Shown: in pieces, positions 3,371 to 36,758 of the stretch
How the letters are laid out: each line of letters starts with the position of its first letter
Position numbering within the stretch: position 1 is the first letter of the stretch
Source of the DNA: an uncultured Dehalococcoidia bacterium
GTDB taxonomy: Bacteria > Chloroflexota > Dehalococcoidia > Lucifugimonadales > Lucifugimonadaceae
DNA: 64,000 nucleotides
Assembly (NCBI GenBank): GCA_958295935.1
Contig: OY282385.1
Location: forward strand, 2,025,545-2,089,544
Direction of reading: 5' to 3'
Program-made: the position numbers and the translations under genes
Notes under the pieces: generated by a model
Told to the model about the DNA's origin: nothing
The model's input: the letters and a program-made list of their open reading frames with translations, nothing else
Databases searched by the model: none

Positions 3371-3419
3371 GCAAGCGATGTCCGATGAAGCCGCCGTTCC
3401 CGGCGACAACGATATTCAT
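3360..3419 (-). pseudogene. Epimerase 5' remnant, copy 3
   Basis: The minus strand reads MNIVVAGNGGFIGHRLPNE and stops. It has the best-preserved Rossmann glycine motif of the three remnants, but is cut after 15 residues by fusion to the membrane-protein gene. About 40 bases upstream (3,420-3,461) match the 3' end of the membrane-protein gene again. Confidence 0.5.
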
Positions 3420-3604
3420 AACCGCCTTCGTATCAACTGCCCGGCGATGAAGGTCATCTAAGGTCGGCTTATAAGCTGGAATACCTTCCTCGTAGGCTTT
3501 AACACGGGAAACAGCAACAGCCCCAGTAAACCGTTGATCTGCCCGGTTAATTTAGTCCGCAGGTCGATGAGGTTTTCCCGGTCGATTTAAACTGCTCTCC
3601 ATGT

Positions 3605-4795
3605 CTATCTTAGTACATGTTGACTGGCGGCCGACCAGATGTCGCAGAGATGCTGAATAACGACATCATAATCATATTCTTTTAACGCCTTCCGCTTGTT
3701 GTGTTGTCCCATGCTCTGCCTTAAAGAAGGCTCGTCGCGCAGGCGCTTCAGCATCTTAACATAGGCGTCGACATCATCGGGATCGGCCAGGAATCCGCCT
3801 TCAGGAACATTGATCATCTCCGGGATTGCCCCCACCGGAGACGCCATTACCGGCAGACCGACCGCCATAGCCTCCGCCATGCTGGTGGGGAAGCCTTCAT
3901 ATTTTAGTTTGGATGGAAATATGAATACGTCGTTTTCAGCCAACCTCTTCACGACTTCACAGTTCTTGACCGGGCCCGATACCTGTACCCGGTCTTGCAG
4001 TCCGAGCTCCCGAATATGCCGCAGCAGCCTGGCCTGAGATGACTCGTCGGAACTGTCTCCTATCAGTTGAAACTGGGTATTGGGCACTCGATTGGCGATT
4101 TCTACGATCGTGTGAACACCTTTCTTCTCGATGAGCCCGCCAGTGAATATGACTCTCAGACTCTTTCGCCTATCCGTAGGCGGGACATGCTCCGGAATTG
4201 AACGGGAATTCACGAAATTTGGAATCAGCGGGGTGGTCTTGTGCGCAAAGTCGCCCAACTCCAATATAGAGCGGTAGCTCGGCTGGCCCAACGCGAGAAT
4301 ATGCGCCGCGCCTTCGAATATGGCGCGCCAAGACCGGCGGTAGAAAATCGCCGAGGGATGATTGCCTGTAGGAACATCGAACGTCCCGTGCAGGTGTGCT
4401 ACGTAGGGCACTTGGGCCCGTCTCGCAATCACCGCCGAGGCCAGATTGCGCGGCACGCCACTGGGGGTAAGCCCACAATTCAGATGCATAACTGAAAATC
4501 GCCCTGACGTCAACGCACGGCGTATTTGCCACAAGATGCTCAGGTTACGCTTTATTTCCACAAGACCCAGTCTTGGCGGCGTGAATTGACTCCGCCTAAA
4601 TACTCGAGTGTCAACGACTTCGAACTTGAAGGGAGGGGGCAATCCGAGTTCGCACAACGTTTGAGTCCAAGTCATTACTCCTCCCGGAGGTGGCGGGAGG
4701 GCCGACACCAGCAGAACCATTATCGGATGATTCGATCCAAGGTTATGCAGCGGGTAGGCGCCGCGCTCTGTATCTGCTGGCTCTGGGCTGGTCAT
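3605..4795 (-). CDS. GT4-family glycosyltransferase
   Basis: The 396-residue protein has a GT-B fold signature. The N-terminal half contains PPPPGGVMTW and a Leu-rich region, and the C-terminal half contains FTGGLIEKKGVHT and the nucleotide-sugar-binding EGFPTSMAEA motif (EX7E), which is typical of retaining GT4 enzymes. It would move a sugar from a nucleotide-sugar donor to a lipid-linked glycan at the cytoplasmic membrane. It lies in the minus-strand polysaccharide cluster downstream of a sugar aminotransferase, which fits assembly of an amino-sugar-containing surface glycan. Donor and acceptor cannot be read from the sequence. Confidence 0.85.
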   Translation of the reverse strand: MTSPEPADTERGAYPLHNLGSNHPIMVLLVSALPPPPGGVMTWTQTLCELGLPPPFKFEVVDTRVFRRSQFTPPRLGLVEIKRNLSILWQIRRALTSGRFSVMHLNCGLTPSGVPRNLASAVIARRAQVPYVAHLHGTFDVPTGNHPSAIFYRRSWRAIFEGAAHILALGQPSYRSILELGDFAHKTTPLIPNFVNSRSIPEHVPPTDRRKSLRVIFTGGLIEKKGVHTIVEIANRVPNTQFQLIGDSSDESSQARLLRHIRELGLQDRVQVSGPVKNCEVVKRLAENDVFIFPSKLKYEGFPTSMAEAMAVGLPVMASPVGAIPEMINVPEGGFLADPDDVDAYVKMLKRLRDEPSLRQSMGQHNKRKALKEYDYDVVIQHLCDIWSAASQHVLR

Positions 4796-4832
4796 GGTTG
4801 CAACTTCGGGCAGTAAACCGCGTTCCCCCCTG

Positions 4833-18487: not shown

Positions 18488-19471
18488 CTACGGCCTCGAC
18501 AGTTCCGGGCCATCGCCAAGTTCTGCACGTATGCGAGCTCTCAGCTTTTTACGTAAATCCTCCGGGTTGCTCCAGACGACGTGATTGTAATGTGAAGTGT
18601 CAAAATGCAGTTTGCTCAGAGAATCCTTGCGGCAGGTGAAAACAACCGGCAGGCCAAGCCCGCGCGCAAACCCGGCCTCATAATACACACTGCCTCTTGT
18701 CCCACCACAGCCCTCCGTAAAATCAGCCACGAGAAATCTTGAGCGGCGGATCTCGGCGATTATCTCGTCTTCAATCTTGTTGACATGCTCCTTTTGGTCA
18801 ATTCGCATAGGCTTGTATCCAGCATCTTCAATAGCAGGCCGTATCCCTTTCTCATAGGCCTGTGTCGTACTCTTATCAAACCACATGGCAACGAAGGCTT
18901 GAGAAGAAATCACGTTAGCCGCCCGATCTGCGATTCGGCTATAGCCATCAACTGTAATTTGAACCTCAATTTCATCAGAATTAGCTGCATTTATGGGACA
19001 ATTCTCTTTCAGCGAACCTTTTTCGTCCAAATAATTAAGAAGAAAGCGAATTTCCTTTTCAGTGATCGACTCTGACCACGCGCAAGCCTCGTCACAAACT
19101 TGGGGAATTATATTAACTGTATCCCCCACCATTTTTGATTGCTTAGCTATGAACGAAAGCAACCTGTCAGCCCGTTCATGAACAGAAAGAGAACGTTTCG
19201 CCCTAACATATTTAATAACCCCTTCGGTTATTTCTGGCACCTTAACACCCTGTAATCCCTGATCGATAAGCCATGTCGTCAGACGCGCCTTTTCGTTATC
19301 ATACATTAGATTGCCAAAAGCGCATATATCGCCGGACACTTTGTATTCTAAACCGGCGCGAGGAGAATTAACGAGGCACATTCCAGTGTCAAAGTCCTCA
19401 CGTACCTCTGCCGCATATTGAGTGCCCCATATCAGGCACGGCCTGATTTTGCTCTCCGTTATCCGCGCCAT
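18488..19471 (-). CDS. Protein with nucleoside 2-deoxyribosyltransferase/TIR-like C-terminal domain
   Basis: Residues 1-185 are an unrecognised, Cys-containing domain (start MARITESKIRPCLIWG). Residues 195-325 look like the deoxyribosyltransferase-like flavodoxin fold shared with TIR-type NAD-consuming effectors: QAFVAMWFDK, IRPAIEDAGYKPMRID, IIAEIRRSRFLVADFTEG, VYYEAGFARGLGLPVVFTC. The YEAG segment carries a plausible catalytic Glu. Proteins of this shape occur as effectors in defence islands. It is encoded on the opposite strand, just before the eight-gene operon. Its AT-richer sequence differs from its neighbours, a sign of transfer. The role as effector is inference. Confidence 0.6.
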   Translation of the reverse strand: MARITESKIRPCLIWGTQYAAEVREDFDTGMCLVNSPRAGLEYKVSGDICAFGNLMYDNEKARLTTWLIDQGLQGVKVPEITEGVIKYVRAKRSLSVHERADRLLSFIAKQSKMVGDTVNIIPQVCDEACAWSESITEKEIRFLLNYLDEKGSLKENCPINAANSDEIEVQITVDGYSRIADRAANVISSQAFVAMWFDKSTTQAYEKGIRPAIEDAGYKPMRIDQKEHVNKIEDEIIAEIRRSRFLVADFTEGCGGTRGSVYYEAGFARGLGLPVVFTCRKDSLSKLHFDTSHYNHVVWSNPEDLRKKLRARIRAELGDGPELSRP

Positions 19472-20153: not shown

Positions 20154-22049
20154 GTGCGAGCAACTGCCCCACAGGTGACATCATTGACTAAGGCGACTTG
20201 GCGATTCCCCCCGAGAAATGGCGGTATTGACTACGTCAATGATCCGTCAGGCACCCATTTTAGCGACGCCCCTATCGCGAAGCTCGTTCGTGAGCTGATC
20301 CAGAACTCCCTGGACGCCAAACACAACGGCTTCGCTAAACCCGTCACCGTCACGTTCTCGGAGACCAACGTGAAGCGTGGGCTCATAGGCGGAGCCGCTC
20401 TGCGAGACCATCTTCAGTCGTGCCTGGACAGGGCACGCGACGACGGCAGGTCTGACATGGTCGAGGTATATTCCAACGCGCTGTCAGTCATCAAGAAACG
20501 CAACATCCCCTGTTTGAAGGTACATGACACTGGCACGATTGGGTTGAACGACGACCGCTGGAAGGCGCTGGTCATTCAGGAGGGGGCGGTCAGCAAGGGC
20601 AGTGGAGCTCCCGGCGGATCTTATGGGATCGGCAAGAACGCCATTCTGAACGTGTCCGACCTCCAGACGGTTTTCTACAGCACACACTTGGTGGAAGGCC
20701 GGAAGGGCCGTGTTACCAAGCTCCAGGGTAAGGCAACTCTCACCGGCCACTCCGACCCCGACGGTTCAGGCGACGACCTCCAGCACATCGGCTTCTACAG
20801 CCTCCAGGAAGACGGGCCCATCATAGGCAGGAACATCGCCAAGTTCTTCCAACTGGCTGAAACGGGAACCGGCGTGTTCATAATGGGCTTCAACCCACAC
20901 TCCTCGAACTGGGTGGAGCAGATGGCGACCGCGGCCATCGAGAACTTCTTCTACGCGATCCACCACCAGAACCTAGTCGTTAAAATCGTCCCCCAAGATG
21001 GGAGCCCAGTCGGGATAGACCACCAGACTATCGATTATCTGTTTGAGCAGTTTAAACCCATCAACCGAAATGCAGTCCACTACTACAGAGCAATCAGGGA
21101 CCCTCTAGATGACGACGTGGAAGTTACGAAGCGGTTCAGGGACTTAGGAAGCCTCAAGGCATACGTCGCCTTCGCTGAGCGCTCACCTAGAAGAGTAGCT
21201 CACATCAACCGCAACGGCATGTTGATAACCGACAGCAGGGAGCAGAAGGTCAACCCGCTAGCCCCGCGAGGAAGGAGCTTGTGGCCAGACTTCGTAGCCG
21301 TGGTTGTACCGGACACCGACGCTGGCGACCTCTGGCTGAGGAGAATGGAAAACCCGAGTCACGACTCGATCTCCTCCGGCCATCTCCGGAGCGAAGAAGA
21401 TCGGCGTGATGCGGACAAGCGACTCAAGGAGGCACGTCTTGAGCTTAGTAAGATCATTGAGCGCAGGGCCGAGACCGACAAGTACGGGGATATCTCCAAT
21501 ATCGACGAGCTCGCCGGCATGCTGCCTGACCAAGACGAAACAATGGGCGATCGGACCCTGAAGACCCAGGTCGTAGAGACCCGAGCCGCCCCCTCTGGCG
21601 TGATAGAGGTCGAAGAGGAAGTTGAAGCCGAAGGCGGGAGAGAGGGAGGAGATAGAGGAGGCGGAAGTGGTGACAATAGAAACGGTACTGAGGGGGGTGG
21701 GGGAGTGGGGAGAGACGGCAAAAGACCGGTTAGGCACAAGGATCGTAAAGCGCTGCTGCGGCGGGTGAGATACATCCCGCTCTCCTCCAGTGAAGCGATA
21801 GTAGCCTTCAACCCGACATCCGACCCGCCGCGAGAGGCGCGATTGTCACTGGCGCCCGCCGGAACCGACCGCGACCCCCGGAGGGCGCGGCCAGTTGCGA
21901 TCACAGAGGCGACGAGGATTGGACAAGTTGAGGAGCCGCTCGCGGTCAATGACGGGGAGATCGTCTTCACCCCGGATTCCAACGACAGAGTGACGATCAG
22001 GGTCATCGCCGACGGCAACCTGGATCGCCACGCTTTCAGGCTGAGATGA
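20154..22049 (+). CDS. GHKL-type ATPase, first gene of the defence operon
   Basis: The 631-residue protein has the Bergerat-fold ATP-binding motifs: N box LIQNSLDAK (about residue 47), G1 box HDTGTIG (about 123), and a glycine-rich lid GSYGIGKNAIL (about 157). This places it with Hsp90/MutL/topoisomerase-VI-like ATPases. Residues about 485-525 are a Glu/Gly-rich linker and the C-terminal ~100 residues are a separate beta-rich domain. The start is either the GTG at 20,154 or the GTG at 20,175. The stop overlaps the next start by 4 bases. GHKL ATPases occur in several anti-phage systems, where they may act as sensors or switches; the role here is inference. Confidence 0.75.
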   Translation: MRATAPQVTSLTKATWRFPPRNGGIDYVNDPSGTHFSDAPIAKLVRELIQNSLDAKHNGFAKPVTVTFSETNVKRGLIGGAALRDHLQSCLDRARDDGRSDMVEVYSNALSVIKKRNIPCLKVHDTGTIGLNDDRWKALVIQEGAVSKGSGAPGGSYGIGKNAILNVSDLQTVFYSTHLVEGRKGRVTKLQGKATLTGHSDPDGSGDDLQHIGFYSLQEDGPIIGRNIAKFFQLAETGTGVFIMGFNPHSSNWVEQMATAAIENFFYAIHHQNLVVKIVPQDGSPVGIDHQTIDYLFEQFKPINRNAVHYYRAIRDPLDDDVEVTKRFRDLGSLKAYVAFAERSPRRVAHINRNGMLITDSREQKVNPLAPRGRSLWPDFVAVVVPDTDAGDLWLRRMENPSHDSISSGHLRSEEDRRDADKRLKEARLELSKIIERRAETDKYGDISNIDELAGMLPDQDETMGDRTLKTQVVETRAAPSGVIEVEEEVEAEGGREGGDRGGGSGDNRNGTEGGGGVGRDGKRPVRHKDRKALLRRVRYIPLSSSEAIVAFNPTSDPPREARLSLAPAGTDRDPRRARPVAITEATRIGQVEEPLAVNDGEIVFTPDSNDRVTIRVIADGNLDRHAFRLR

Positions 22050-22897
22050 CCACTTGGCACCAGAGGATGCTGCCCTATCCGCTGCTGGCGCCGTGGACGG
22101 AAGACTACGAGTACTCTTCGTTCGGAGTCGATGTGCCGGAGGCCGTTCTGAACAACGGACGCCAGGTCAAAGTTGACCTTGTATTCCGTCTCTTTTCGGA
22201 CACCCTGCGTGGCTTGATCGAGAACGACAAGGCTAGGTACGCGGTGGAGGTCTCCTGCCCAAGGACGTTCGTGCGGAGTACGCATGTGACGTCTGAGCAG
22301 AGTGAACTGCTTCTGGATGCCAGTGACTACGACGAGGAGATACTGATCACACCGTATGTGGTATCTACCAGAGCCCTGGAAGGGTTCAGGTCTCCTGAAC
22401 ATGCTCAGGAATGGCGTGACCACAGGCCTGAAGGCTTCAACGTTCCGACCGCCGGAATTCTGGCTGTTGGCAATACCATGCGCATCATCCTAAAAGACTC
22501 GGGCGTGAGCTCTGTGATCGACCTGATCGCCAACCCCAATGTCTCCGAGGGCACGTTCAGCGTTCAGCTCGACGATGAGCGGATCAAGATACACGTACCG
22601 ATCAAGGATAAGAATAAGATCGAAGCCGTCAGGGCCAAACGAGGCAGCAGCGTGGAGTTCAGGGCCCTGTTTCCCGCTCTGTACCTGCACGCGGTCGCAG
22701 AGGCGCTGAGGGCCCTTTCTGAGTATGAGAATACCCGTTGGGCGTTCACTATGCGGAATGCTCTCGACAGGTCTGGCCACGGCGGCGTTGACGCTGAGCT
22801 GCTTAGGAGCGACGCGCTCAGGTACGCCCAAGATCTGATGGAACAGCCGGTCCGAGCGTTTCTCACCGCGGCAGTGAGCCCAGAGGAAGAGGACTAG
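22046..22897 (+). CDS. Unknown protein of the defence operon
   Basis: I do not recognise this 283-residue protein. It opens MTTWHQRMLPYPLLAPWTEDY, has a predicted beta-rich N-terminal half (VEVSCPRTFVRS, LITPYVVSTRALEGF) and a more helical C-terminal half (FPALYLHAVAEALRALSEYE). There is no signal peptide or membrane segment. It overlaps the GHKL gene by 4 bases and ends 6 bases before the PP-loop gene, so a complex with the ATPase is likely. Confidence 0.7.
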   Translation: MTTWHQRMLPYPLLAPWTEDYEYSSFGVDVPEAVLNNGRQVKVDLVFRLFSDTLRGLIENDKARYAVEVSCPRTFVRSTHVTSEQSELLLDASDYDEEILITPYVVSTRALEGFRSPEHAQEWRDHRPEGFNVPTAGILAVGNTMRIILKDSGVSSVIDLIANPNVSEGTFSVQLDDERIKIHVPIKDKNKIEAVRAKRGSSVEFRALFPALYLHAVAEALRALSEYENTRWAFTMRNALDRSGHGGVDAELLRSDALRYAQDLMEQPVRAFLTAAVSPEEED

Positions 22898-22903
22898 CAT
22901 CCG

Positions 22904-24535
22904 ATGACTGACGGTCACCCTGTCTGCCGGCTAACTCAGGAGGCGTACGATCAGCTCCGTCTGGTGGCGGACGAGAACCCGGGCTCATACTTGGACTCCG
23001 AGATTGACTTCAGTGAGGTCCTGCGAGCGAGCGGAGTCTCCGACCCATTTGAGGAGACGTCTATAACCACCAACAGGCCGATAGACCTCACTCCGGTTGC
23101 AGAAGGGGAAATCCCGAACCGCGCGGATCGGCAAGCACTCGACTTCTACCGGTCGTTCGACGGAATGAGCCCGAATAGGGCCACTGACGAGCGACTATGG
23201 GCCTGGATGACCCACTTCCGTCTTCATGCCTACGGTCTCAAGCGCTGGCGGCGTCCGTCCAACATCAACATGCAGAACTATGTCCAGTCTCACTGGTTCA
23301 GTTCGGCGTCCACCGATGCGTTCTGGCGGCACAACACGGCTTCCAGGACCTGGTGGATAGCCCACACCGCTGTCAAGGCGGCGCAGGGTTCTGCAGGCGC
23401 GTTCACCGCCGAAGAAGCGCTGAAGGTGTTCGCCGACACCGCGGTCTTCTATCACATTCCTATGTACTACAACTTCACACGCGATCCCATGATCCTTGCG
23501 GAAGTGGTGCGGGTAATCCTCAACGAGGCTGAGGGCATCAACGCTGAGAAGGGTATGTACGCCCTGCTCGGAGAGTTGAATCTCATTGGCGGCACACAGA
23601 TCCTTCCGCTGCTGCCTCGTGAGATGCTGCGGGAAAGGATCGTCGACAACGTGGAGCGGATCATGTCCGATCCCGACATGGTGAACGACCGCACGAAGAT
23701 CCGGAATCGGACGCCCTTCAGATCGCTCAGCCTCGGTGCTGGTGTTCAGTCGACCGTGCTGGCGCTCATGGCGGAGCGTGGAGAGTATGATTTGCCAAAG
23801 CCCGACGTGGCCATATTCGCCGACACCGGCTGGGAGCCTCCAAGCGTGTACGAACACTTGGACTGGCTTCAGGAGCAGCTTTCGTTTGAGGTCGTGCGAG
23901 TCAGTGCCGGTAACATCAAGGACAACATTCTCGAGGGGACGAGCCCCGACGGCAACAACTACCTCGGGATCCCCGCGTTTCTGATCAATCCCGACGGCAG
24001 CCCTGCGGTCGCGGCCAGACAATGTACGTCGAAATACAAGGTAAGGCCAATCAACCGCTACCTGCGAGAGCGCTTGGGCATTGCCCCCGGCCAACGCGCG
24101 CCCAAGCACGTGCATGTCGAGATATGGATGGGTATAAGCGCCGACGAAGCGCTTCGGCAGAAAGAAAGCAGGGAGGAGTGGGCGACCAACTACTACCCCT
24201 TGATCGAACTCGGTTTCAGCCGGGCCCAGCTGTTCACGTGGTTTACCGAGAACTACCCCGGTCGTTACCTACCAAGGAGCTCTTGCGTTGGCTGTCCATA
24301 CCGTACCGACGGGGAGTGGAAGTGGCTAAAGGCCAACGATCCCGACGCCTTCGGGGAAGCGGTGTTCGTGGATCGGGCACTGCGGGAGGTCCCATTGGTC
24401 AGAAATGCGATCACGCGCAAGGGCAGCGCATACCTGCATAGATCCCGTGTGCCTCTCTCAGAAGTGGGTTTTGAGGAGACCACGGACTACGACTCCTACA
24501 TGGCGGAGGAGTGCGAGGGCCTTTGTGGTATCTGA
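22904..24535 (+). CDS. PAPS-reductase/DndC-like PP-loop protein with extra N-terminal domain
   Basis: Residues 275-543 form a PP-loop ATP-pyrophosphatase of the phosphoadenosine-phosphosulfate-reductase superfamily: SLGAGVQSTVLALMAE (PP-loop), VAIFADTGWEPPSVYEHL, AARQCTSKYKVRPI, WMGISADEALRQKES, SSCVGCPYRTDGEW, and the C-terminal ECEGLCG. The conserved cysteines could hold an iron-sulfur cluster, as in DndC. Residues 1-270 are an added helical domain with DERLWAWMTHFRLHAYGLKRW and NTASRTWWIAHTA; from memory this resembles the DUF6339 family. In the context of a DndD-like ATPase, sulfur transfer to DNA is a reasonable inference, but no cysteine desulfurase is encoded nearby. Confidence 0.75.
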   Translation: MTDGHPVCRLTQEAYDQLRLVADENPGSYLDSEIDFSEVLRASGVSDPFEETSITTNRPIDLTPVAEGEIPNRADRQALDFYRSFDGMSPNRATDERLWAWMTHFRLHAYGLKRWRRPSNINMQNYVQSHWFSSASTDAFWRHNTASRTWWIAHTAVKAAQGSAGAFTAEEALKVFADTAVFYHIPMYYNFTRDPMILAEVVRVILNEAEGINAEKGMYALLGELNLIGGTQILPLLPREMLRERIVDNVERIMSDPDMVNDRTKIRNRTPFRSLSLGAGVQSTVLALMAERGEYDLPKPDVAIFADTGWEPPSVYEHLDWLQEQLSFEVVRVSAGNIKDNILEGTSPDGNNYLGIPAFLINPDGSPAVAARQCTSKYKVRPINRYLRERLGIAPGQRAPKHVHVEIWMGISADEALRQKESREEWATNYYPLIELGFSRAQLFTWFTENYPGRYLPRSSCVGCPYRTDGEWKWLKANDPDAFGEAVFVDRALREVPLVRNAITRKGSAYLHRSRVPLSEVGFEETTDYDSYMAEECEGLCGI

Positions 24536-26885
24536 AGTAGACAATAAGAAACGCTTCCTGCAGCAGCTAAGCCAGAATACGGCCCCCTCAGAGCCAGATC
24601 TCCCAATGACTGCGGTACTAGCATGGATCTCTGATGGAGGGACGGCGGCCAACGGTATCAAATACGGGTCGTCAGACCATGCCGTCACCTGGGGAAACAA
24701 GGGCTGTCCGCTACTGCCACGAGATGTACGAGAGCACCACAGGGGGGTCCAGTTACCGCACGACCTTCAAAGGGTCTTCGGCGCATCCCTTACAGTGGAC
24801 CAACTCGATTCGAGTGTTCTTGAACTCGCGATTGACGCTGTTTGGCAGCCGCCTCCACGCGAGTTTCGAGACTTCCTTTACAGCATGCCCATCCCGGCCG
24901 CTCAAGTGGCTATCCCGGCCGGCATTCCACTGGCGTGGATCGAGGACCTGCCAATTACTGGTCGCACGCGTGGTGCTGTACGGAAGGCGTTTAAGGAGAT
25001 GGGAGTAGACAGCTTCCTGAAAGTGCCTATGCTGGCGCGCCAGTTTCTAAACATACGTTCAGTTGGTGTGACGATTCTCAACGAACTCACGTGCGTCATT
25101 GAGTCCGCAGAGCTGGGGTGGACTGATGAAGATCCAACGGTTGATCTGTATGACTCAGCCACTCCTCAGATCACTGAAGGCATGTCCGAATTCAACAGTC
25201 ATTTGTACGAGTTCGCCAGGTGGGCAATGGCCGAGACTGACGCCCAGACCTTCGGGGAGGCGATTGCTGAACTCATAAGAGCGGGAGCTGCGAATGAAGT
25301 TTGGAAGTCAGTGGCTCTAGTCAGCCTAGCGGAACTAGCAGCGCGTCCCCCGCATCCATACGAAGTGTTAGACAAGTGGATGGAACAGATTGATGCTCGA
25401 TCGCGGGTCATCTTCATGGCTAGGGTCTCCGGTCACCCTCATAACGTCGTGACTCTGGAGGAGCTTGGCGCTGGATTTGCTGTTAGTCGGGAGAGGATCC
25501 GTCAGGTCGAAGTCAAGGTCCATCGTACTCTGAATAGGTTTCTCGCGTCGGATGAAGCGTTGCCAGTTCGGTGGAGAGCCTCAACCCTCCGCCGTATGTT
25601 GAGTGTTGCGGCTCCGGTACATACTGTCGAGCACTTGCTGACCTCTCCACCCGGGTGCAACGACCACCGTGGCATTCTTTTGGAGATGGCTGGTCCGTAT
25701 GATCGTGACCACGATTGGTTCACTCTTCGTTCGGCCCGGTCCGATGACCCAACATCGGCGATCCTGACTCAGGTGGATGAGGTAGGTAGTATCGATAGAG
25801 AGTTCGCTATTTCTCAGCTCACGGAGTGGGGACTGGACGTCTCCTTGCACGAAAGATGGCTAACGCGCGATGGCTCCGTGCGTCTCTTCAACGGCCAACT
25901 AGTCCAGTGGGGCAGTTCGGCCCCTAAACGCATGGCGTTCGCCCTTGCCGACATGGGTCGGCCTGCCACAGTCGATGAAATGATGACTCACGTAGGCGAG
26001 GAGCGATCGCGCAATTACATCAAAACCGCGCTGGGGGCTGATCCAAGGCTGGTAAGAGTCAGCCCTACTCACTGGGGATTGGCGTCCTGGAACCTTCCCG
26101 AGTATTCAGGAATAGCAGAATCAATGCGCGATCTTATCGAAGAGCAAGGAGGATCAATGGTCATCGACATGTTGGCGTATCGGATGAACCAGAGGTTTGG
26201 AGTGGAGGAAAACTCTACCATCGCATACTGCGGCGCTCCTATGTTTGTTGTTGAGGGAGAGTCCCTCCGGCTCCGTACGCAGCACGATGAACCATACCGC
26301 TATAACCCGGATTTGATAAGGCGTACGCCAGGCGTATTTAATCTAGGACCCATGCGATTGGGACGCCTTCTCAAGGTGGATAAGGATATACTTCGTGGTA
26401 GTGGAACCTCCCTGACGCATGCTGCGGGTTTCATACTAGGAGTCGAAGTCAAGGCCCATCTCTCATTTAGTAACCGGCATGGCGATAGAGTAACCATTAC
26501 GTTCCCTGAGACCTCGAACAGTGGACCGTCTATAAGCTCAGTTCTGCGGATTGCGGAGAGGTTGTCAGCAAAGGAGGGCGATTATCTGACGCTTGTCCTA
26601 GACAGATCTGAAATGACAGTGTCCGCATGTTTGACCGATCTCAAGGAGCAATCGCCTGGGTGGGACGTGATAGGCAGACTGACCGGGATTGCCACGACAG
26701 TTAACCTGGATGGACTGGCCAAGGCTCTGAGTTGCAGCGCAGGAGAAGTGCGCAGCGTGTTGAGGGCGAGAGGGGACGCCGACATACTGGACTTCTTGCC
26801 GTCATCTAAACCATCCGCTACTCTGGACGATGCGTTGGCGGCACTTGAAGACCACATTGAGAACACGCGCGAGATTCTTCCGTGA
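24525..26885 (+). CDS. Protein with alpha-CTD-like, sigma region-4 and HARE-like winged-helix domains
   Basis: The GTG at 24,525 is preferred: GAGGG lies 5-9 bases upstream and the gene then overlaps its neighbour by 11 bases; the frame further upstream is antisense-like. The 786-residue protein has a helix-hairpin-helix resembling the RNA polymerase alpha C-terminal domain (about residues 139-187: LPITGRTRGAVRKAF...NIRSVGVTILNEL), a sigma region-4-like helix-turn-helix (about 309-335: SRERIRQVEVKVHRTLNRF), and winged-helix segments (about 475-560) that resemble HARE-HTH domains of restriction-linked proteins. It may recruit the system to DNA or monitor transcription. The stop overlaps the helicase start. 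Confidence 0.65.
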   Translation: MVSEVDNKKRFLQQLSQNTAPSEPDLPMTAVLAWISDGGTAANGIKYGSSDHAVTWGNKGCPLLPRDVREHHRGVQLPHDLQRVFGASLTVDQLDSSVLELAIDAVWQPPPREFRDFLYSMPIPAAQVAIPAGIPLAWIEDLPITGRTRGAVRKAFKEMGVDSFLKVPMLARQFLNIRSVGVTILNELTCVIESAELGWTDEDPTVDLYDSATPQITEGMSEFNSHLYEFARWAMAETDAQTFGEAIAELIRAGAANEVWKSVALVSLAELAARPPHPYEVLDKWMEQIDARSRVIFMARVSGHPHNVVTLEELGAGFAVSRERIRQVEVKVHRTLNRFLASDEALPVRWRASTLRRMLSVAAPVHTVEHLLTSPPGCNDHRGILLEMAGPYDRDHDWFTLRSARSDDPTSAILTQVDEVGSIDREFAISQLTEWGLDVSLHERWLTRDGSVRLFNGQLVQWGSSAPKRMAFALADMGRPATVDEMMTHVGEERSRNYIKTALGADPRLVRVSPTHWGLASWNLPEYSGIAESMRDLIEEQGGSMVIDMLAYRMNQRFGVEENSTIAYCGAPMFVVEGESLRLRTQHDEPYRYNPDLIRRTPGVFNLGPMRLGRLLKVDKDILRGSGTSLTHAAGFILGVEVKAHLSFSNRHGDRVTITFPETSNSGPSISSVLRIAERLSAKEGDYLTLVLDRSEMTVSACLTDLKEQSPGWDVIGRLTGIATTVNLDGLAKALSCSAGEVRSVLRARGDADILDFLPSSKPSATLDDALAALEDHIENTREILP

Positions 26886-29047
26886 GCTTCTCCCCCCATT
26901 TCATGCAGGTTCGCCCCGCTTATGAGATACCCTCTCAGAATCTTGTGGGGGAGGTGCTCGTACCAGCCATGCGCCTGTGCGACGAACTTAGGATAGAGGC
27001 TGGTTTCTTCTCCTCTCGCTGCTTAGCGCAGATCGCCCCTGGTCTTGCCGCTTTCGTCAACGACACTAAAGGCATCTTGCAACTCATGGCCTCCCCGGAG
27101 ATCAGTGAAGAAGACCAAAATGCCATCCGAAGAGGTGTCAGTGACCCACAGACTGTCCTCCAGCAGACTATGGACAAGCTGTTCGAGAGCGCACGGCTGT
27201 CAGAGTCAGCCATAGAACGACATGCAGTAGAAACCCTCTCATTCCTTGTGGCCAGCGGACGACTAGAAATGCGCGTGGTTCTGATGGCTCGCGGGATGTA
27301 CCACAAGAAGATATGGCTATTCCGGTCCGCCGACCAGTGGCTGGCCGTCCATGGCTCAGGGAACGCGACAGAACGAGGACTACTGGTTAATGGGGAGCAG
27401 ATGTCCGTAGACCGAGCGTGGATGGACGGATCGCGCTCAGCCGAGCGTGTCGCAATGTTCCTAGATCAATGGTCTAGGCGATGGCAAAATCAAGACGTGG
27501 CCTCCCTGACGGTCGATGTAGCTCAGTCACTCCACGTTATGCGGGCGCACGCAAGACTAACTCCACCGACGGTGGACGACTTCTGGGAGGCCTGGCGACG
27601 GGACCATGATGCTGGACTTGAGCCGGACCTACCACGTGGTTACACCACTGAACCCATCTCGCACAGGCTGCGGGTGCCAGACTGGCTTGAGTGGCGGGAG
27701 GGTACGTTTGCACACCAAGGGCCGGCCGTCGATGCCGTTCTTGAACGAGGCGGAGGCATACTCTCAATCGCAACCGGTGGCGGCAAGACAAAGACCGCGC
27801 TCATCGCCTCTACGGAAATTCAACGCAACTACGATGGACATCTGTGCGTCGTGATCCTTGCTCCAAGCAGACCGCTCATACGGCAGTGGACCGCCGACGT
27901 TCGTGACTTTGACATGGAGCCCGTTGTTCTCACAGGCATGAAACCGATGCAACGCCTCGAGGAATTGGACCGACTGTCCATAGCATTCGGGACTTCTCAA
28001 CCAAGAACCGAAGCGCTGCTAATGACCAACGCAATGTTCAGTCGGAAAGATTCCAGTGTCCGCGAATGGCTGGAGGGCCTGCCCAATTCGGTCGGCCGCG
28101 TGTTGATTGCTGACGAAGTGCATAATCTGGGATCGCCAACGTTCATAAGAAACCAGCCAGACTTTTTCGAGTACAGGATCGGATTGTCGGCAACGCCCAT
28201 TCGGCAATACGACCCTGACGGCACCGATCAGCTCTTTGAATTCTTTGGTGGGGAGCCGGTGTTTGAGTTCACGCTCCGCGACGCGATTCATGCCGGTTGC
28301 TTGGTCCCTTACCGTTACTACTTACACACCGTGAAATTCTCGCAACTTGAGATGGAGCACTACGAGGACCTAACCGAACAGCTCGCGCGTGCGGGTTTCC
28401 GCATCACTGACGATGGTCGTACAGTCGGACTCACTCACAAAGTGGAGCGTCTACTTCAAGAGCGCAGGGCCCTGGTCGAGCAGGCCGACTCCAAGTTGGT
28501 GGCCCTGGAACAAGCTCTCCGTCATATGAATCCAAATTCGGTCAGGAAAACCCTTATCTACACTTCGGCGAAGCCCACTATGTTGGGCAAACCCCGTCAG
28601 ATTACGGTGGTGAATAGGCTATTGCAGGATCTCCACATCACCTCTCACCAGTACACCGCGGAAGAGACCGGTACATCCGGATCCCAGAGGATCCTAAGCA
28701 GATTCGGCGCGGGAGACTACCAGGCGCTTACTGCCATGAAGGTGCTTGACGAAGGCATCGATATCCCTCAGACTGATACGGCGTTCCTCATGGCCAGTAG
28801 CGCCGTTGAGAGAGAGTGGGTGCAGCGACGCGGCCGCATCCTCCGCAATGCGCCCGGCAAGGAGTTCGCTAATCTACATGACTTCATCGTGATTCCTCCT
28901 GACACTGGCTCTACCTCGGGCAAATCCCTGCTCAGGTCGGAATTGCGGCGAGCCTCAGCGTTCGCAGACTTGGCGGAGAACGAATACGATCCTGACGGTC
29001 CTCGGACTATAATCAGAAGCCTCGAATCCTCCATCAGAACGGTATAG
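26882..29047 (+). CDS. PLD-family nuclease fused to SF2 helicase
   Basis: The N-terminal ~200 residues carry a phospholipase-D-like HKK...GSGN motif (about residues 140-162), typical of PLD nucleases that hydrolyse DNA. An SF2 helicase follows: Walker A ATGGGKTKTA (about 297), ADEVHNLGS (about 409), LSATPIR (about 435), DEGIDIP (about 622) and QRRGRILRN (about 647). The 721-residue protein probably translocates on DNA and cuts it, serving as the restriction part. The GTG start overlaps the previous stop (GTGA). One HKK motif per chain means the nuclease would need to dimerise. Confidence 0.75.
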   Translation: MSFSPHFMQVRPAYEIPSQNLVGEVLVPAMRLCDELRIEAGFFSSRCLAQIAPGLAAFVNDTKGILQLMASPEISEEDQNAIRRGVSDPQTVLQQTMDKLFESARLSESAIERHAVETLSFLVASGRLEMRVVLMARGMYHKKIWLFRSADQWLAVHGSGNATERGLLVNGEQMSVDRAWMDGSRSAERVAMFLDQWSRRWQNQDVASLTVDVAQSLHVMRAHARLTPPTVDDFWEAWRRDHDAGLEPDLPRGYTTEPISHRLRVPDWLEWREGTFAHQGPAVDAVLERGGGILSIATGGGKTKTALIASTEIQRNYDGHLCVVILAPSRPLIRQWTADVRDFDMEPVVLTGMKPMQRLEELDRLSIAFGTSQPRTEALLMTNAMFSRKDSSVREWLEGLPNSVGRVLIADEVHNLGSPTFIRNQPDFFEYRIGLSATPIRQYDPDGTDQLFEFFGGEPVFEFTLRDAIHAGCLVPYRYYLHTVKFSQLEMEHYEDLTEQLARAGFRITDDGRTVGLTHKVERLLQERRALVEQADSKLVALEQALRHMNPNSVRKTLIYTSAKPTMLGKPRQITVVNRLLQDLHITSHQYTAEETGTSGSQRILSRFGAGDYQALTAMKVLDEGIDIPQTDTAFLMASSAVEREWVQRRGRILRNAPGKEFANLHDFIVIPPDTGSTSGKSLLRSELRRASAFADLAENEYDPDGPRTIIRSLESSIRTV

Positions 29048-29048
29048 C

Positions 29049-29267
29049 ATGGTCAATGCGGCAAGAATCTTAACTAATGCGGCCCGCGACGTCGTTCAGG
29101 ACATCGAGAAGCGGTACGAGGGGTACGACGCCGAACTGGTGATAACATTCACAAAAGTGCTTCAGATATTTCGGGATGAATCTGGTGAGATGGCGCAGCG
29201 GCGTCGCATCGAAACCCTCCTCCACGGCCTAGCATCCAATGCAAATGCGAGGTCAGACGACACATGA
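29049..29267 (+). CDS. Small helical protein of the defence operon
   Basis: A 72-residue, charged, helical protein (NAARDVVQDIEKRYEGYDAEL) starts 2 bases after the helicase stop region and overlaps the SMC-type gene by 4 bases (ATGA). No domain is recognised. Its position suggests a subunit of the ATPase. Small partner proteins are common next to DndD/Rad50-like ATPases. Confidence 0.65.
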   Translation: MVNAARILTNAARDVVQDIEKRYEGYDAELVITFTKVLQIFRDESGEMAQRRRIETLLHGLASNANARSDDT

Positions 29268-31411
29268 GACTCGACAGCGTCCACATCACCAACTTTAAGC
29301 TGCTGGAAGATATCGAGTTGCGTTTTTCCACTGACTCATCCCGTCCGCTCACGGTGATAAGGGCAGAGAACGGCTCTGGCAAGACCTCAATCCTTCAGGC
29401 GCTCCGATGGGGCATGTGGGGTGGAAAGGGTATTCCGCCAGGAATGCCTTTGACTTCTACATCAGTTCCAGCCGGCGAATCAGTCCAAGTGCAGGTGAGC
29501 ATTGACTTTAGCGAACGGGATATGTACTCAGACAAGGAGACTCGCTACAGGCTGATCCGGACCTGCACGGAAACCCGGGGCGAAGGCGACAAGAACCAGA
29601 GGGACGCCCCACGTGAGAGACTGTTGCGGTTGACGGATCAGGGGTCTGTAGACATTGAGGAGGGTAGGCAGGCGCGAATCAGCGCGATGATGCCGCTTAG
29701 CTTGGCGGATGTGTTTTTTACGGACGGTGACGCGGTTCAGAACTTCGTGTCGGGAATCGGTCCGTCCCCGAGGGATCGCCAGGAGTACGTGCACCAGGCT
29801 ATTCGACAGCTTCTGGGGTTCGAAGAGGTGGAATTGGCTAAAAAGGTCCTTGAAAAGATCTCCAGGCGCTTCAGGCACGAGTTGCGCGGCAGTGGCAGCG
29901 TGGAACTCAAGGTAGCAGAAGAAAAGCTCGAAAAGATAGAGGACAACCGTGAAGGCAAACTGGAAGAGCGAAGCCAAACACGCAGTCGCATCGAAGGAGT
30001 TGACCAGCAAATCCGGGAGGACGAACGTGAACTAGACCGAATAAGGGGTATAGGCGATCTGGACGCTATCCAGGCTCGCATAAATCAGTTGACCACTGAT
30101 ATCGAACACCTGGAGAAGGAAGAGGTCAATGTACGTCAGCAGATGAAGGATATGCTGCGATCTGAAAGTCTCTCAAGGCGGATGCTTGGAAACTGGCTCC
30201 GGTCCGGTGTGGATGTTCTCGCGGAACTAGCGGACAGGAATGTGATACCAGGTATGTCGGTTGGTCTCCTGCACGACCGTTTGGAGCTTGGAGTATGCAT
30301 TTGCGGCGTCGAGCTGGCTGAAGGAGACCCTAAACACATGCATATCCTAGAACTTATAGAACGCCAGAAGCAATCCGAGCCAGGACTCCAGCGTCTCACG
30401 GAATTGAGGCACGAGTCGAGAAACATCACGCGCGCGACCACTGAGTCTCCCGAAGACGACGGTTCTTTTGCTGAGAGACTAGAAACGTTGAGGAGGCAGT
30501 TCACCGACTACAAGGACCGACAGCGCCAGAAGGCGGGCGATCTTCGAGTTGAGAAGGACCGGCGATCCCAGATCGATGAGGAACGTGTCCGGGAACTCAC
30601 CGGGCGGCTGGAATCCAGTAGGTTAAAGAAGTCCGAATACGAGCGACAACTTGGCCAGATCGAGGGCCGCATCCAGGAGTTAGAAGAGCGATTTAAGCAA
30701 CAGAAGGAATCGGTGGACCGAGCTGAACGTGAAGAGAAGCTGAGCAGTGCTTTCCGACGGAGGTCCGAGGTTGCAAGTGATTTGCTCGGGCTGACCACGG
30801 GGATTCTCGACAGGCTCAAGTCGGACCATGTCCATAGGGTCTCTGAACGCATGGAGCAGCTCTTCCTGGACATCGTGGGGGCAGACCCTACAGCGGATTC
30901 GGGTTTGTTCTCCGGCGTTAATATCGTGAGTGGAAGCTACGATGTGATCGTCCATGCTCAGGAAGGTCGAACACTTGACGTGGTGACCGACCTCAATGGG
31001 GCCTCCAAAAGAGCCCTGACTCTTTCTCTCATCTGGGCGCTCATGGAGGTCGCAGAGAAGGAAGCGCCACGGATCATTGACACACCATTAGGAATGACGT
31101 CCGGAGCGGTCAAACACCGAATGGTCGAATTGTTGACTTCTCCTATTGATGACGGGACCGGCCTTCCTTACCAAGTGGTCCTGTTTATGACCCGGTCTGA
31201 AATCCGCGATATTGAGCAGTTGATTCAGAAGAGGGCTGGTGTTATCACAACTTTGACCTGCTCAAAGGACTATCCAGTCGATCTAGTCAACGACTGGGTC
31301 TCCAGCTACCCAGTCGTGCGAACCTGTCCCTGCGATCACACGCAGATATGTCAGCTTTGCGAGAGACGCAACGATCAGGGTAGGCTCAGATACAGAGAGG
31401 TGTCGGATTGA
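29264..31411 (+). CDS. DndD/Rad50-like SMC ATPase
   Basis: Walker A (AENGSGKTSIL) is at residues 34-44, and the Walker B region reads IIDTPLGMTSGAVKHRM (about 604), the DTPLG form seen in DndD. The middle is a long coiled coil (residues 180-510) interrupted by CICGVELAEG (about 345), which could be a zinc hook-like turn, although one Cys pair is spaced CxC. The protein ends in an extra Cys-rich tail (CPCDHTQICQLCE) that may bind zinc. It would act with the PP-loop enzyme on DNA, by analogy with DndC-DndD. The TTG start of the next gene overlaps this stop. Confidence 0.75.
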   Translation: MRLDSVHITNFKLLEDIELRFSTDSSRPLTVIRAENGSGKTSILQALRWGMWGGKGIPPGMPLTSTSVPAGESVQVQVSIDFSERDMYSDKETRYRLIRTCTETRGEGDKNQRDAPRERLLRLTDQGSVDIEEGRQARISAMMPLSLADVFFTDGDAVQNFVSGIGPSPRDRQEYVHQAIRQLLGFEEVELAKKVLEKISRRFRHELRGSGSVELKVAEEKLEKIEDNREGKLEERSQTRSRIEGVDQQIREDERELDRIRGIGDLDAIQARINQLTTDIEHLEKEEVNVRQQMKDMLRSESLSRRMLGNWLRSGVDVLAELADRNVIPGMSVGLLHDRLELGVCICGVELAEGDPKHMHILELIERQKQSEPGLQRLTELRHESRNITRATTESPEDDGSFAERLETLRRQFTDYKDRQRQKAGDLRVEKDRRSQIDEERVRELTGRLESSRLKKSEYERQLGQIEGRIQELEERFKQQKESVDRAEREEKLSSAFRRRSEVASDLLGLTTGILDRLKSDHVHRVSERMEQLFLDIVGADPTADSGLFSGVNIVSGSYDVIVHAQEGRTLDVVTDLNGASKRALTLSLIWALMEVAEKEAPRIIDTPLGMTSGAVKHRMVELLTSPIDDGTGLPYQVVLFMTRSEIRDIEQLIQKRAGVITTLTCSKDYPVDLVNDWVSSYPVVRTCPCDHTQICQLCERRNDQGRLRYREVSD

Positions 31412-31836
31412 CGACTGAGTCTTCGTACCGCTATCAAAACCTCTGGGTCCCCAGCACGTTCCGTGCGGAGTTCGTTGCCTCGAACGACTCGCTGGTCAGC
31501 CTTACCAATCCGCGTGCAGCATTTGGGCGGGTAGTTGACCTCTGGTGGCATGCGATCGAATTGGGGGTAATGGCTGGAGAGAGGACCCCTCTGGCCACTC
31601 CGCCGCGACCCACTTTAGTTAGCTTCAGTGAAGCTGATATCTTGCAGTCAGACCCCTGGCGTGTCACGCATCTCGAGCTGCTCGTCTTGGGAGAACAGGG
31701 CGTTGACGCGGCGTGCAATCCGGCCACGGTGATATTGACAGCTAATGAATACGCGATGACCGGATTTAGGCTCTTGGCGGAGGAGCTGCGCGGCCAAAGT
31801 GACCTTCAGGCGCATCTCTTCTCTCTGGTGGAGTAG
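31408..31836 (+). CDS. Small unknown protein, last gene of the defence operon
   Basis: A TTG at 31,408 overlaps the previous stop (TTGA) and opens a 142-residue protein with DLWWHAIELGVMAGERTPL and an acidic C-terminus (TANEYAMTGFRLLAEEL). In dnd operons the small dndE follows dndD, and this gene has the same place and similar size, but I do not see a convincing DndE motif. The tight overlap and lack of a gap to the operon argue that it belongs to the system. Confidence 0.6.
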   Translation: MTTESSYRYQNLWVPSTFRAEFVASNDSLVSLTNPRAAFGRVVDLWWHAIELGVMAGERTPLATPPRPTLVSFSEADILQSDPWRVTHLELLVLGEQGVDAACNPATVILTANEYAMTGFRLLAEELRGQSDLQAHLFSLVE

Positions 31837-32024: not shown

Positions 32025-32747
32025 CTATCCACTGCCGGGTCGGGCGTCACCGGCACCCTGTTGAGAATCCCGCACCTGTCTGCCCAGAGTGGTCAGCCTG
32101 TACATTTGCATCCTGCTCCTAGGGCTGTCCGGGAGGGTCATCTCGACCAACCCCGCCTCAAGGCCGGATTGCAGGTAGGTCCTGACAAAATGCCTGCGGT
32201 CCGTCAAGCCCAGGGTGTCCATAAGTTCCGCCCGGTTCAACTCGATTTTGTCGTCCAGCGTCCCCAGCACGTGAGCAATAGCCCGCTGCTCAGCCAACGG
32301 CGGGAGTGGAACGGTCAAGTGGTCCAGCGAATCCACCGGGACCCGTTGGCGGCCAGAGGTGCCGATCATCTGACCAATGGCGTAGTTGCGGACTTCCTCC
32401 CATTGGGTCAAGTAGTAGGCAAAGTCGTTGTCGGTTACGTTTGGGCGTCCACGTAACACGATGAATTCTGTTGAACCATGTCCTAATCCGGCTGTGTCGG
32501 GAGCGCTGTAGCGGGCAATTTTCCTATTCTCAAGACACGGGGTAATACGAGCCATGAGAGTGTCGCCGTCTTGAAACCGAGAGCCACCGCCCTTGAACTC
32601 CCGTTCCTCTGCCGAGTTGACGCTTCTCGAACCTGCATCCACAGCGGCCATATCAACGAAGGGGTAAAGTTCGCTACGTTCAAGGCGAACTGGTGGGTTG
32701 ATTAGCACTGCCTCGCTGAATGGCACCTCGCGCCATTTACCCTCCAA
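32025..32747 (-). CDS. Half-HsdS target-recognition domain fused to winged helix
   Basis: Residues 1-170 are one target-recognition domain and one conserved helix of a type I restriction specificity subunit: SEAVLINPPVRLER, FQDGDTLMARITPCLENRKIA, GTSGRQRVPVDSL, VPLPPLAEQRAIAHVLGTLDDKIELNR. The expected second half is missing; the frame instead runs into a winged helix (LGLTDRRHFVRTYLQSGLEAGLVEMT...SRMQMYRLT) of the kind found at the C-terminus of AlbA_2/RecG-like regulators. No hsdM or hsdR is nearby. It may be a deletion fusion or an orphan DNA-binding protein. Confidence 0.7.
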   Translation of the reverse strand: MEGKWREVPFSEAVLINPPVRLERSELYPFVDMAAVDAGSRSVNSAEEREFKGGGSRFQDGDTLMARITPCLENRKIARYSAPDTAGLGHGSTEFIVLRGRPNVTDNDFAYYLTQWEEVRNYAIGQMIGTSGRQRVPVDSLDHLTVPLPPLAEQRAIAHVLGTLDDKIELNRAELMDTLGLTDRRHFVRTYLQSGLEAGLVEMTLPDSPRSRMQMYRLTTLGRQVRDSQQGAGDARPGSG

Positions 32748-34697: not shown

Positions 34698-36758
34698 TCA
34701 AATCCGCTTCAGCCGCTCCACTATCCTCTCTGCCGAAACCTGGTGCGAGTAGCTGCTGCCTATGTCCTCCCAGCGCACGGCCCCGCTCTTGTCGATCACG
34801 AACACCGAGGCCGACGCCAACCCGTCCCCATGCAGATCGAACACCTCGTAACCCTCCGGCACCGAAGGATCCTTGCTCGTGTACAGCAGCGGAAAGCCAA
34901 GCCCAAAATTCGCTATCAGCGCCTCGGAACCCTGCAGATCGTCCGTGCTCACCGCCAGAACCACCGCATCCTGCTCGGCCACCGAGTCATAGTTGTCTCG
35001 CAACTCCACGAGCTGCTCACGGCAATAACCTCACCAGAACGCCCGGTAGAACACCAGCACCACGTTCTTCTCGCCCCGATAGTCGCTAAGCGTCACCTCG
35101 CCGCCCTGCGCATTCGGCAGCGTGAAATCCAACGCCAACTCCCTTGCAGGCGTGGGCGGTACCGGCGTTGCCGTTGGAACCGGCGTCGGGGTTGCTGTTG
35201 GAACCGGCGTCGGGGTTGCCGTAGGAACTGACGTCGGGGTAGGCCGAGGCGTCGGCGTTGCAGTCGGCGGTACCGGAGTCGCCGTAGCGACCGGCGCAGG
35301 CGTCGAGGTTGGCTGCGGCGCGGGCGTATCCGCGGGCGACATTGGCGTGGGCGGTACCGGAGTCGCCGTGGCGACCGGCTCCGGCGTCGCGGTGGGCTCA
35401 GGCGTCGGCGTATCCGCGGGCGGCGCTGGAGTAGGCGGTACCGGAGTCGCAGTAGCGACCGATGCCGAGCCCGAACGGCCTGCAACGGGTTCCTGCGCGG
35501 CAGCAGACGAAGAAAGACGCTCCAACTGACCCGCGATCTCCGATGCCGAAACCTGATGCGAGATGCTACGCCCCACGTCCTGCCACCGCACCGACCCGCT
35601 CTTGTCGATCACGAACACCGAGGCCGACGCCAACCCGTCTCCGTGCAAGTCGAAAACCTCGTAGCCCTGCGGCACCGAAGGATCCTCGCTCGTGTACAGC
35701 AGCGGAAAATCAAGCCCGAACCTCGATATGAGCTCCTCGGAACCCTCCAGATTGTCCGTGCTCACCGCCAGAACCACCCCATCCTGCGCCGCTATCAGGT
35801 CATAGTTGTCTCGCAACTCCACGAGCTGCTGCCGGCAAAAACCTCACCAGAACGCCCGGTAGAACACCAGCACCACGTTCTTGTCAGCTCGATAGTCGCT
35901 AAGCGTCACCTCGCCGCCGTGCGCATTCGGCAAGGTGAAGTCCAGCGCCAGATCCGAGGACTCCGCGAACGTGATGTCCGCCGCCGGCGTAGCCGTAGCC
36001 GCCGGCGCAGTCGGCGCAACGGCCGTGGGCGACTCGCTCGACCGCACCGCCGTAGCCGTCGGATCCGCCCGCATAGGCGGCGGAAGACCAGACATGAAAT
36101 GACGAGCCACCGTCAGAATGTCCTCCGCGCCCGGGCGGTCACCCGCGTGAGCGCCGACGTGCGCAGCCACCAAACGGCCCGACTCCCCGAACACGAACAT
36201 CGCAGGCGCAGCAACGCTGTCACGCAACAGATCGAAAACACCCCAGGAACGACTCACCACCGTCGTCGTGTCATACAGCACCGGATACGTCAGACGGTTC
36301 CTCTCCACTATCGACTCCGCGTCCAGACGGTTGTCGATGCTGATAGCTATCAACTCCACGTCAAGAGCCTTCAACTCCCGGTAGCGCTGCTGCAACTCCA
36401 CGAGCTGCTCATGGCAAATCCCTCAGAAATTGCCCCGGTAGAACACCACAGCCACCGGCTGCTTGCCGATGTAGTCCGCGCTGTTCAACTCGCCGCCGCC
36501 GGCCTTTGGAAGGCTGAACGCAGGAAACGATTCAGGGTTGTAGCTCTCTACAAGCTGTAAAACCTTCGGCGGCTCAGGAGTCGGAGTCGAACGAACCGAC
36601 TGCGTAGCCGAAGGCGTCTCGCCCACGCCCGCCGCAGGCGACCCTTCCCCCGAAGATCCCGAACTGCACGCCAGAACGCCGAGCGCAGCCGCCATGAGAA
36701 CGCCCAGCGCAAACGCGCCCGCAACTCGCACTCTCCGACGCACACGTCGAAACGACAT
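34698..36758 (-). CDS. Triple peroxiredoxin-domain lipoprotein with three TGA-encoded selenocysteines
   Basis: One frame runs without interruption except for three TGAs at 36,425-36,423, 35,846-35,844 and 35,033-35,031. Each TGA falls at the catalytic Cys of an AhpC/TSA-like domain: FYRGNF-U-GIC, FYRAFW-U-GFC and FYRAFW-U-GYC, with the second Cys kept. The start is the ATG at 36,758, with GAGGAG 5 bases upstream. A signal peptide ends in a lipobox (GVLAC, Cys31). The domains are joined by Pro/Thr-rich linkers, the second about 110 residues. Length is 686 residues, Sec at about 112, 305 and 576. It would reduce peroxides or disulfides outside the membrane. Conventional gene calling would split it into four. 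Confidence 0.85.
35000..35016 (-). promoter_or_regulatory. bSECIS-like hairpin after TGA 3
   Basis: GCAGCTC-GTG-GAGTTGC folds into a seven-pair stem (one G-U) with a three-base loop starting with G. It begins 15 bases after the TGA and its loop starts 22 bases after it, inside the range for bacterial SECIS elements that recruit SelB-Sec-tRNA. Confidence 0.65.
35813..35829 (-). promoter_or_regulatory. bSECIS-like hairpin after TGA 2
   Basis: The 17-base sequence and its distance from the TGA are identical to the element after TGA 3, while the codons between TGA and hairpin differ at several bases. Confidence 0.65.
36392..36408 (-). promoter_or_regulatory. bSECIS-like hairpin after TGA 1
   Basis: The same 17-base hairpin, at the same distance from the first TGA, although the surrounding domain has diverged most in protein sequence (FUGICHEQLVELQ). 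Confidence 0.65.

Follow-up and report, generated by a model that had tools for sequence, protein, structure and literature searches.

Organization of the operon

Eight open reading frames, all on the forward strand, form a tight operon at positions 20154-31836 of the window, which is the whole 64,000-nt stretch of DNA analysed here. The first-pass annotation had linked the eight genes by overlaps of 4 to 11 bases throughout; the reading frames and their order hold, and five of the seven junctions do overlap (by 4, 11, 4, 4, and 4 bases), whereas the remaining two are gaps of 6 and 1 base. Gene 1 (20154..22049) encodes M33A, a paraMORC2-like GHKL ATPase (PADLOC PDC-M33A, E 1.6e-76), and overlaps by 4 bp (22046-22049) gene 2 (22046..22897), which encodes M33B (PDC-M33B, E 1.3e-32), a protein without assigned role that invariably lies between M33A and M33C. 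After a 6-bp gap (22898-22903), gene 3 begins with the M33C domain (residues 1-262; 22904..23689), matched by Pfam DUF6339 (E 6.4e-24) and by PADLOC PDC-M33C, and continues in a fused orphan SspD/DndC-like PP-loop domain (23690..24535; PADLOC SspD, E 6.6e-15), here called the PAPS domain, a candidate DNA sulfur-modification enzyme. Gene 4 encodes a Sigma4/HARE-like DNA-binding protein and probable regulator (Sigma70_r4 match); its longest reading frame runs from 24405, and if the likely GTG start at 24525 is used (24525..26885), it overlaps gene 3 by 11 bp. A 4-bp overlap (26882-26885) leads into gene 5 (26882..29047), encoding the PLD nuclease-SF2 helicase PbeA, and 1 bp (29048) separates it from gene 6 (29049..29267), encoding the 72-aa PbeB. 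Further 4-bp overlaps join gene 6 to gene 7 (29264..31411; overlap 29264-29267), encoding the CxC-hook ABC ATPase PbeC, and gene 7 to gene 8 (31408..31836; overlap 31408-31411), encoding PbeD, a DndE-family partner of PbeC.

This order is not a chance arrangement, because a relative (L010=L021) keeps it as far as its contig runs, that is, to the contig end inside gene 5 (pbeA), with 80% identity to the window in gene 1 and 89% in gene 3. The domain calls of the first-pass annotation (GHKL, PAPS/SspD-like, sigma-70 region 4, PLD/SF2 helicase, and DndD-like ATPase) were confirmed by motif or profile matches, with amendments: the HARE part of gene 4 has no profile confirmation, in contrast to its sigma-70 region 4, and gene 3, read as a PAPS-reductase/DndC-like enzyme, does carry the SspD-like domain, but its fusion with DUF6339 had been overlooked. 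Homologues of gene 4 are long, standalone proteins on mycobacterial plasmids and gave no functional lead.

The flanking genes lie on the reverse strand. Just upstream, the product of 18488-19471 weakly matches TIR effectors and nucleoside deoxyribosyltransferases; just downstream, 32025-32747 encodes a short protein similar to a Type I specificity subunit, whose C-terminal domain is Fic-like and which resembles an hsdS remnant. At 35031-36401, also on the reverse strand, neighbouring reading frames each match AhpC/TSA peroxiredoxin, which suggests a frameshift or a tandem duplication.

Genes 5 to 8 correspond to pbeABCD

Genes 5 to 8 were assigned to pbeABCD, a known phage-defence module associated with phosphorothioate (PT), because of the PADLOC matches to PbeA (E 1.9e-170) and PbeC (E 1.3e-56) and the NCBIfam matches of gene 5 to dnd_restrict_1 (TIGR04095, E 8.7e-102), gene 7 to DndD, and gene 8 to dnd_assoc_4 (TIGR04062, E 7.8e-4), all three of them below the curated cut-offs, read together with the descriptions of PbeABCD (PMC6459918) and of the CxC/DndE system (PMC10853773). 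The expected components, a PLD-SF2 helicase, the small PbeB, a CxC ABC ATPase, and a DndE-family PbeD, occur in this order, PbeB being identified by size and position only. PbeB, 66 aa long in PMC6459918, had no sequence match, which fits a fast-evolving protein. Gene 8 overturns the earlier statement that no DndE was recognisable in the operon.

On a Sphingomonadaceae plasmid (L215), a cysteine desulfurase gene is followed by SspB, SspC, SspD, and PbeA to PbeD, i.e., SspABCD-PbeABCD, where SspB, SspC, and SspD were named from annotated products and position. Identity between the window and this plasmid is 37% for PbeA, 28% for PbeC, and 38% for PbeD (E 1e-11); PbeB measures 72 aa in the window versus 74 aa on the plasmid, and both PbeC proteins carry a CIC hook (residues 345-347 in the window).

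The PAPS domain belongs to an orphan SspD-like clade

The PAPS domain aligned with SspD by hhalign (probability 99.2%, E 1.2e-19) and contains the five SspD cysteines, namely C374 (RxCTx3K), C461/C464 (SxCx2C), and the C-terminal pair C537/C541. These five residues and the RxCT...K / SxCxxC / C-terminal Cys signature were present in 32 of 32 orphan proteins and in 8 of 8 PT-linked enzymes. The domain thus has the features of SspD, a PP-loop enzyme with five conserved cysteines, yet its clade is separate: a long branch with 100/100 support lies between it and the SspD/DndC-type rows. A CysH-type metabolic role was rejected, as the CysH-like protein encoded in this genome has other cysteine motifs, namely CCGVRK and ECGLH.

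Profile searches of the genome found no DndC (TIGR03183) and no second DndD; the DndD-like gene of the operon is PbeC, and the DndC with adjacent DndD-DndE that defines Dnd systems was not seen. SspB and SspC had no match in the operon or in the genome profile searches, which were silent in control genomes too, so that their absence is unproven. Aminotransferase-V proteins, which could include cysteine desulfurases, are present in the genome.

Members of the orphan clade are mainly lone genes on plasmids and phages, with 218 plasmid and 57 phage records (counted at the search threshold and including weak matches to true SspD) and hundreds of viral contigs. Plasmid copies directly follow ArdC/zincin-type genes on pTi C58 and in Roseibium, overlap a C5 methyltransferase gene in Streptomyces SNU607, and lie near an adenine methylase gene in Laceyella. 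These plasmid neighbours are consistent with an antirestriction role; lone phage PAPS genes are without a shown function (PMC11437467). The position directly 3' of an ArdC/zincin antirestriction-type gene was recorded at 5024-6864 of L124 (Agrobacterium fabrum C58 pTi) and at 3018-4813 of plasmid locus L213. On a Mesorhizobium phage-like plasmid (L122:5491-6810), a truncated C5 methyltransferase N terminus is continued in frame by an orphan PAPS domain, possibly a trace of gene displacement.

The same genome carries a second operon (L115:5446-10256; G000:C1 about 468.9-473.8 kb), in which an orphan PAPS gene comes first and is followed by genes for an SF2 helicase, a MORC GHKL ATPase, and a PLD nuclease; this operon type also occurs in two other genomes (L116 and L117), whereas the orphan PAPS copies in L219 and L220 have no helicase-MORC-PLD alongside. 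On plasmids, helicase-MORC-PLD was accompanied by PT-modification genes in 7 of the 8 records inspected, either SspBCD-type genes or, in two cyanobacteria, a PAPS gene together with a cysteine desulfurase gene and one annotated as DndB. PADLOC confirmed the adjacent SspB, SspC, and SspD where it was run, and the two cyanobacterial "DndB" genes had no PADLOC match. Identification of helicase-MORC-PLD with SspFGH was rejected, since SspF has a Walker A motif and SspH is FtsK-like (PMC8092258). Taken together, the pairings in the window and in the second operon show a single orphan PAPS clade in the company of two distinct restriction modules, each of which is found elsewhere with fuller PT genes.

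In one M33ABC lineage the PAPS domain stands in place of a C5 methyltransferase

Genes 1 to 3 encode M33A, M33B, and M33C consecutively, as in PADLOC's PDC-M33. A scan with the GHKL protein yielded 80 loci from many phyla; with earlier loci added, M33B was present in 88 of 91 loci and M33C in 86, in A-B-C order. M33A keeps all GHKL motifs, and its ExxxH motif (E399xxxH403, residues 399-403) is 100% conserved among 86 relatives. According to PMC2292703, ExxxH is the mark of paraMORC2 and lies in the S5 domain; by sequence, M33A is a paraMORC2-like protein, having both the GHKL motifs and ExxxH. No nuclease signature was seen in M33B or M33C. M33C was modelled separately because mixed M33C/PAPS alignments misplaced its last third; a model of the whole gene 3 product, built on four sequences, reached a pLDDT of only 45. 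The predicted structure of M33C alone (pLDDT 94, pTM 0.90) had no Foldseek match in the PDB (best E 0.91) or among viral models, and VIA-align gave only Z below 5. Neither M33C, M33A, nor the PAPS domain convincingly matched PDB sequences.

For 66 non-redundant loci, flanking sequence was available; a C5 methyltransferase gene lay within 4 kb of M33ABC in 42 of the 58 PAPS-less loci versus 0 of the 8 PAPS loci. This comparison is not independent evidence, and its Fisher p of 1.3e-4 overstates the contrast, because the tree shows one replacement event. In the concatenated M33 tree (FastTree), all PAPS loci cluster together with 0.986 support, and the lineages around them are mostly C5-linked; on this phylogeny, PAPS replaced the C5 methyltransferase once. 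One of the neighbouring C5 methyltransferases was confirmed as PF00145 (E 3e-60).

A candidate restriction-modification system with a single sulfur-marking enzyme

From sequence and gene context, we propose, with a chance that we put at about even, that the operon of this Dehalococcoidia-like Chloroflexota is a PT-type restriction-modification (anti-phage) system, of which the modification half is one SspD-like enzyme. The PAPS domain, acting without SspB or SspC, would mark host DNA with sulfur from a housekeeping cysteine desulfurase, the sulfur probably replacing an oxygen of the backbone. PbeC and the DndE-like PbeD would scan DNA, PbeA would attack DNA that is unmarked, and PbeB would have a regulatory role. 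M33ABC would be a second mark-dependent module, whose ancestors were paired with a cytosine-5 methyltransferase; M33A may remodel or loop DNA, the fused M33C may tie the marking enzyme to the M33ABC module, and the sigma4/HARE protein probably regulates expression.

This reading is supported by the PbeA and PbeC profiles and the colinearity of PbeABCD with the Sphingomonadaceae plasmid, by the five retained SspD cysteines and the second orphan PAPS that heads a PT-linked module, by the lack of DndC, SspB, SspC, and second DndD matches in genome profile searches (those for SspB and SspC with silent controls), and by the nesting of the M33ABC-PAPS lineage among C5-linked lineages. Two suggestions of the first-pass annotation, that DndC-like plus DndD-like parts point to sulfur chemistry on DNA and that the PLD-helicase could be the restriction part, are likewise well supported by sequence and gene linkage. 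However, every known PT system requires several proteins (DndCDE or SspBCD), and, to our knowledge, no SspD acting by itself is known to modify DNA. The one-enzyme reading is also weakened because PAPS displaced the C5 methyltransferase in a single event of the M33 tree, because PP-loop enzymes act on tRNA and metabolites as well, because M33ABC-PAPS occurs elsewhere without an evident restriction module, and because M33B and M33C have no nuclease motif.

What lies downstream of the M33ABC-PAPS block varies: sigma/HARE-PbeABCD in the window and L021, helicase-MORC-PLD in L011, a GHKL/HEF_HK gene in L022, GmrSD in L025, a protein without assigned role in L012, and no evident module in L014, L015, L016, and L024. 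A block that occurs alone or with such varied modules, and in which M33C and PAPS are fused in seven loci, could instead be a joint modification complex, with M33A in the SspC/DndD role (energy or DNA remodelling), M33B and M33C picking the target, and PbeABCD alone restricting. Known PT enzymes do require an ATPase partner; nevertheless, the usual partner of M33ABC is a C5 methyltransferase, an enzyme that works without such help, and orphan PAPS also accompanies helicase-MORC-PLD and, on plasmids and phages, occurs by itself in the absence of M33. We regard the joint complex as unlikely, though less so than the two alternatives that follow. The recurrence of M33ABC-PAPS with other downstream genes (L011, L022, and L025) or none, together with the hsdS-like fragment and TIR-like gene in the flanks, would also suit two independent systems, M33ABC-PAPS and sigma/HARE-PbeABCD, that are merely neighbours in a defence island. 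This is improbable in our judgement: translational overlaps join the two blocks in the window, the order in L021 continues into pbeA, and the split would leave PbeABCD without a modification partner, whereas in the nearest plasmid relative inspected it directly follows SspABCD. Finally, PP-loop enzymes have diverse substrates, tRNA and metabolites among them, and the lone phage genes are without shown function, but action of the PAPS domain on a nucleotide, tRNA, or protein in signalling or immunity, rather than on DNA, is hard to reconcile with the retention of all five SspD cysteines, its presence in a single genome beside two PT-linked modules that are unrelated to each other, and plasmid copies adjoining antirestriction or methylase genes, and seems just as improbable.

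If the one-enzyme reading is correct, DNA could be sulfur-marked without any of the machines described to date, which comprise four or five genes, many phage and plasmid "PAPS reductases" without assigned role would become candidate antirestriction enzymes, and such one-gene thio-modification would exceed a mere variant of known PT systems. More tentatively, and with somewhat less than an even chance, the orphan SspD-like clade as a whole may consist of one-gene DNA PT (or other sulfur) modifiers, equivalent in sulfur chemistry to orphan DNA methyltransferases, that serve plasmids and phages for antirestriction, with ArdC or methylases as neighbours, and were captured by Chloroflexota as the modification half of M33ABC/PbeABCD and of helicase-MORC-PLD. 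The operon also offers a testable context for PDC-M33 and a concrete partner candidate, a single SspD-like enzyme, for those PbeAC pairs (320 of 553) that lack PT genes nearby and whose partner was left open by Xiong et al. (PMC6459918).

Comparison with known systems

The operon had first been taken for an undescribed system. PbeABCD, PDC-M33, and the replacement of a methyltransferase by PAPS are each known separately, the last from type 4 BREX (PMC12839542), and in the profile search against the PADLOC catalogue PDC-M33A/B/C, SspD, PbeA, and PbeC all matched; one half of the operon, genes 5 to 8, already bears a name. Neither M33ABC with a lone SspD-like domain and PbeABCD, nor a lone SspD-like modification half, was found in the literature searched, which included few subscription papers, and to this extent the combination appears new.

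Type 4 BREX resembles the window in having a PAPS-reductase-type enzyme where a methyltransferase would be; its PAPS enzyme is of another clade, however, and PADLOC detected no BrxC/SspC-like ATPase, PglZ, or DUF4007 among the operon proteins, which also include no cysteine desulfurase. The presence of GHKL ATPases in restriction-modification operons was recognized as early as 2008, and the MORC/paraMORC operons, as presented in part of PMC2292703, likewise place a GHKL ATPase with ExxxH beside modification and helicase-PLD genes; the window has a sulfur-type enzyme instead of a methylase, and M33B and M33C go unmentioned in that part. PDC-M33, a phage-defence candidate, shares M33A, M33B, and M33C in the same order, whereas in the window M33C is fused to an SspD-like domain rather than accompanied by a neighbouring DNA methyltransferase, and PbeABCD is attached. 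Compared with DndCDEA-PbeABCD and SspABCD-PbeABCD, the window has one SspD-like domain, M33ABC, and a sigma/HARE gene in place of the multi-gene PT set, but the Pbe gene order and sizes, the CxC hook, and the DndE-family partner are common to both (PMC6459918 and PMC10853773), and, as in those systems, PbeABCD lies directly 3' of the modification genes.
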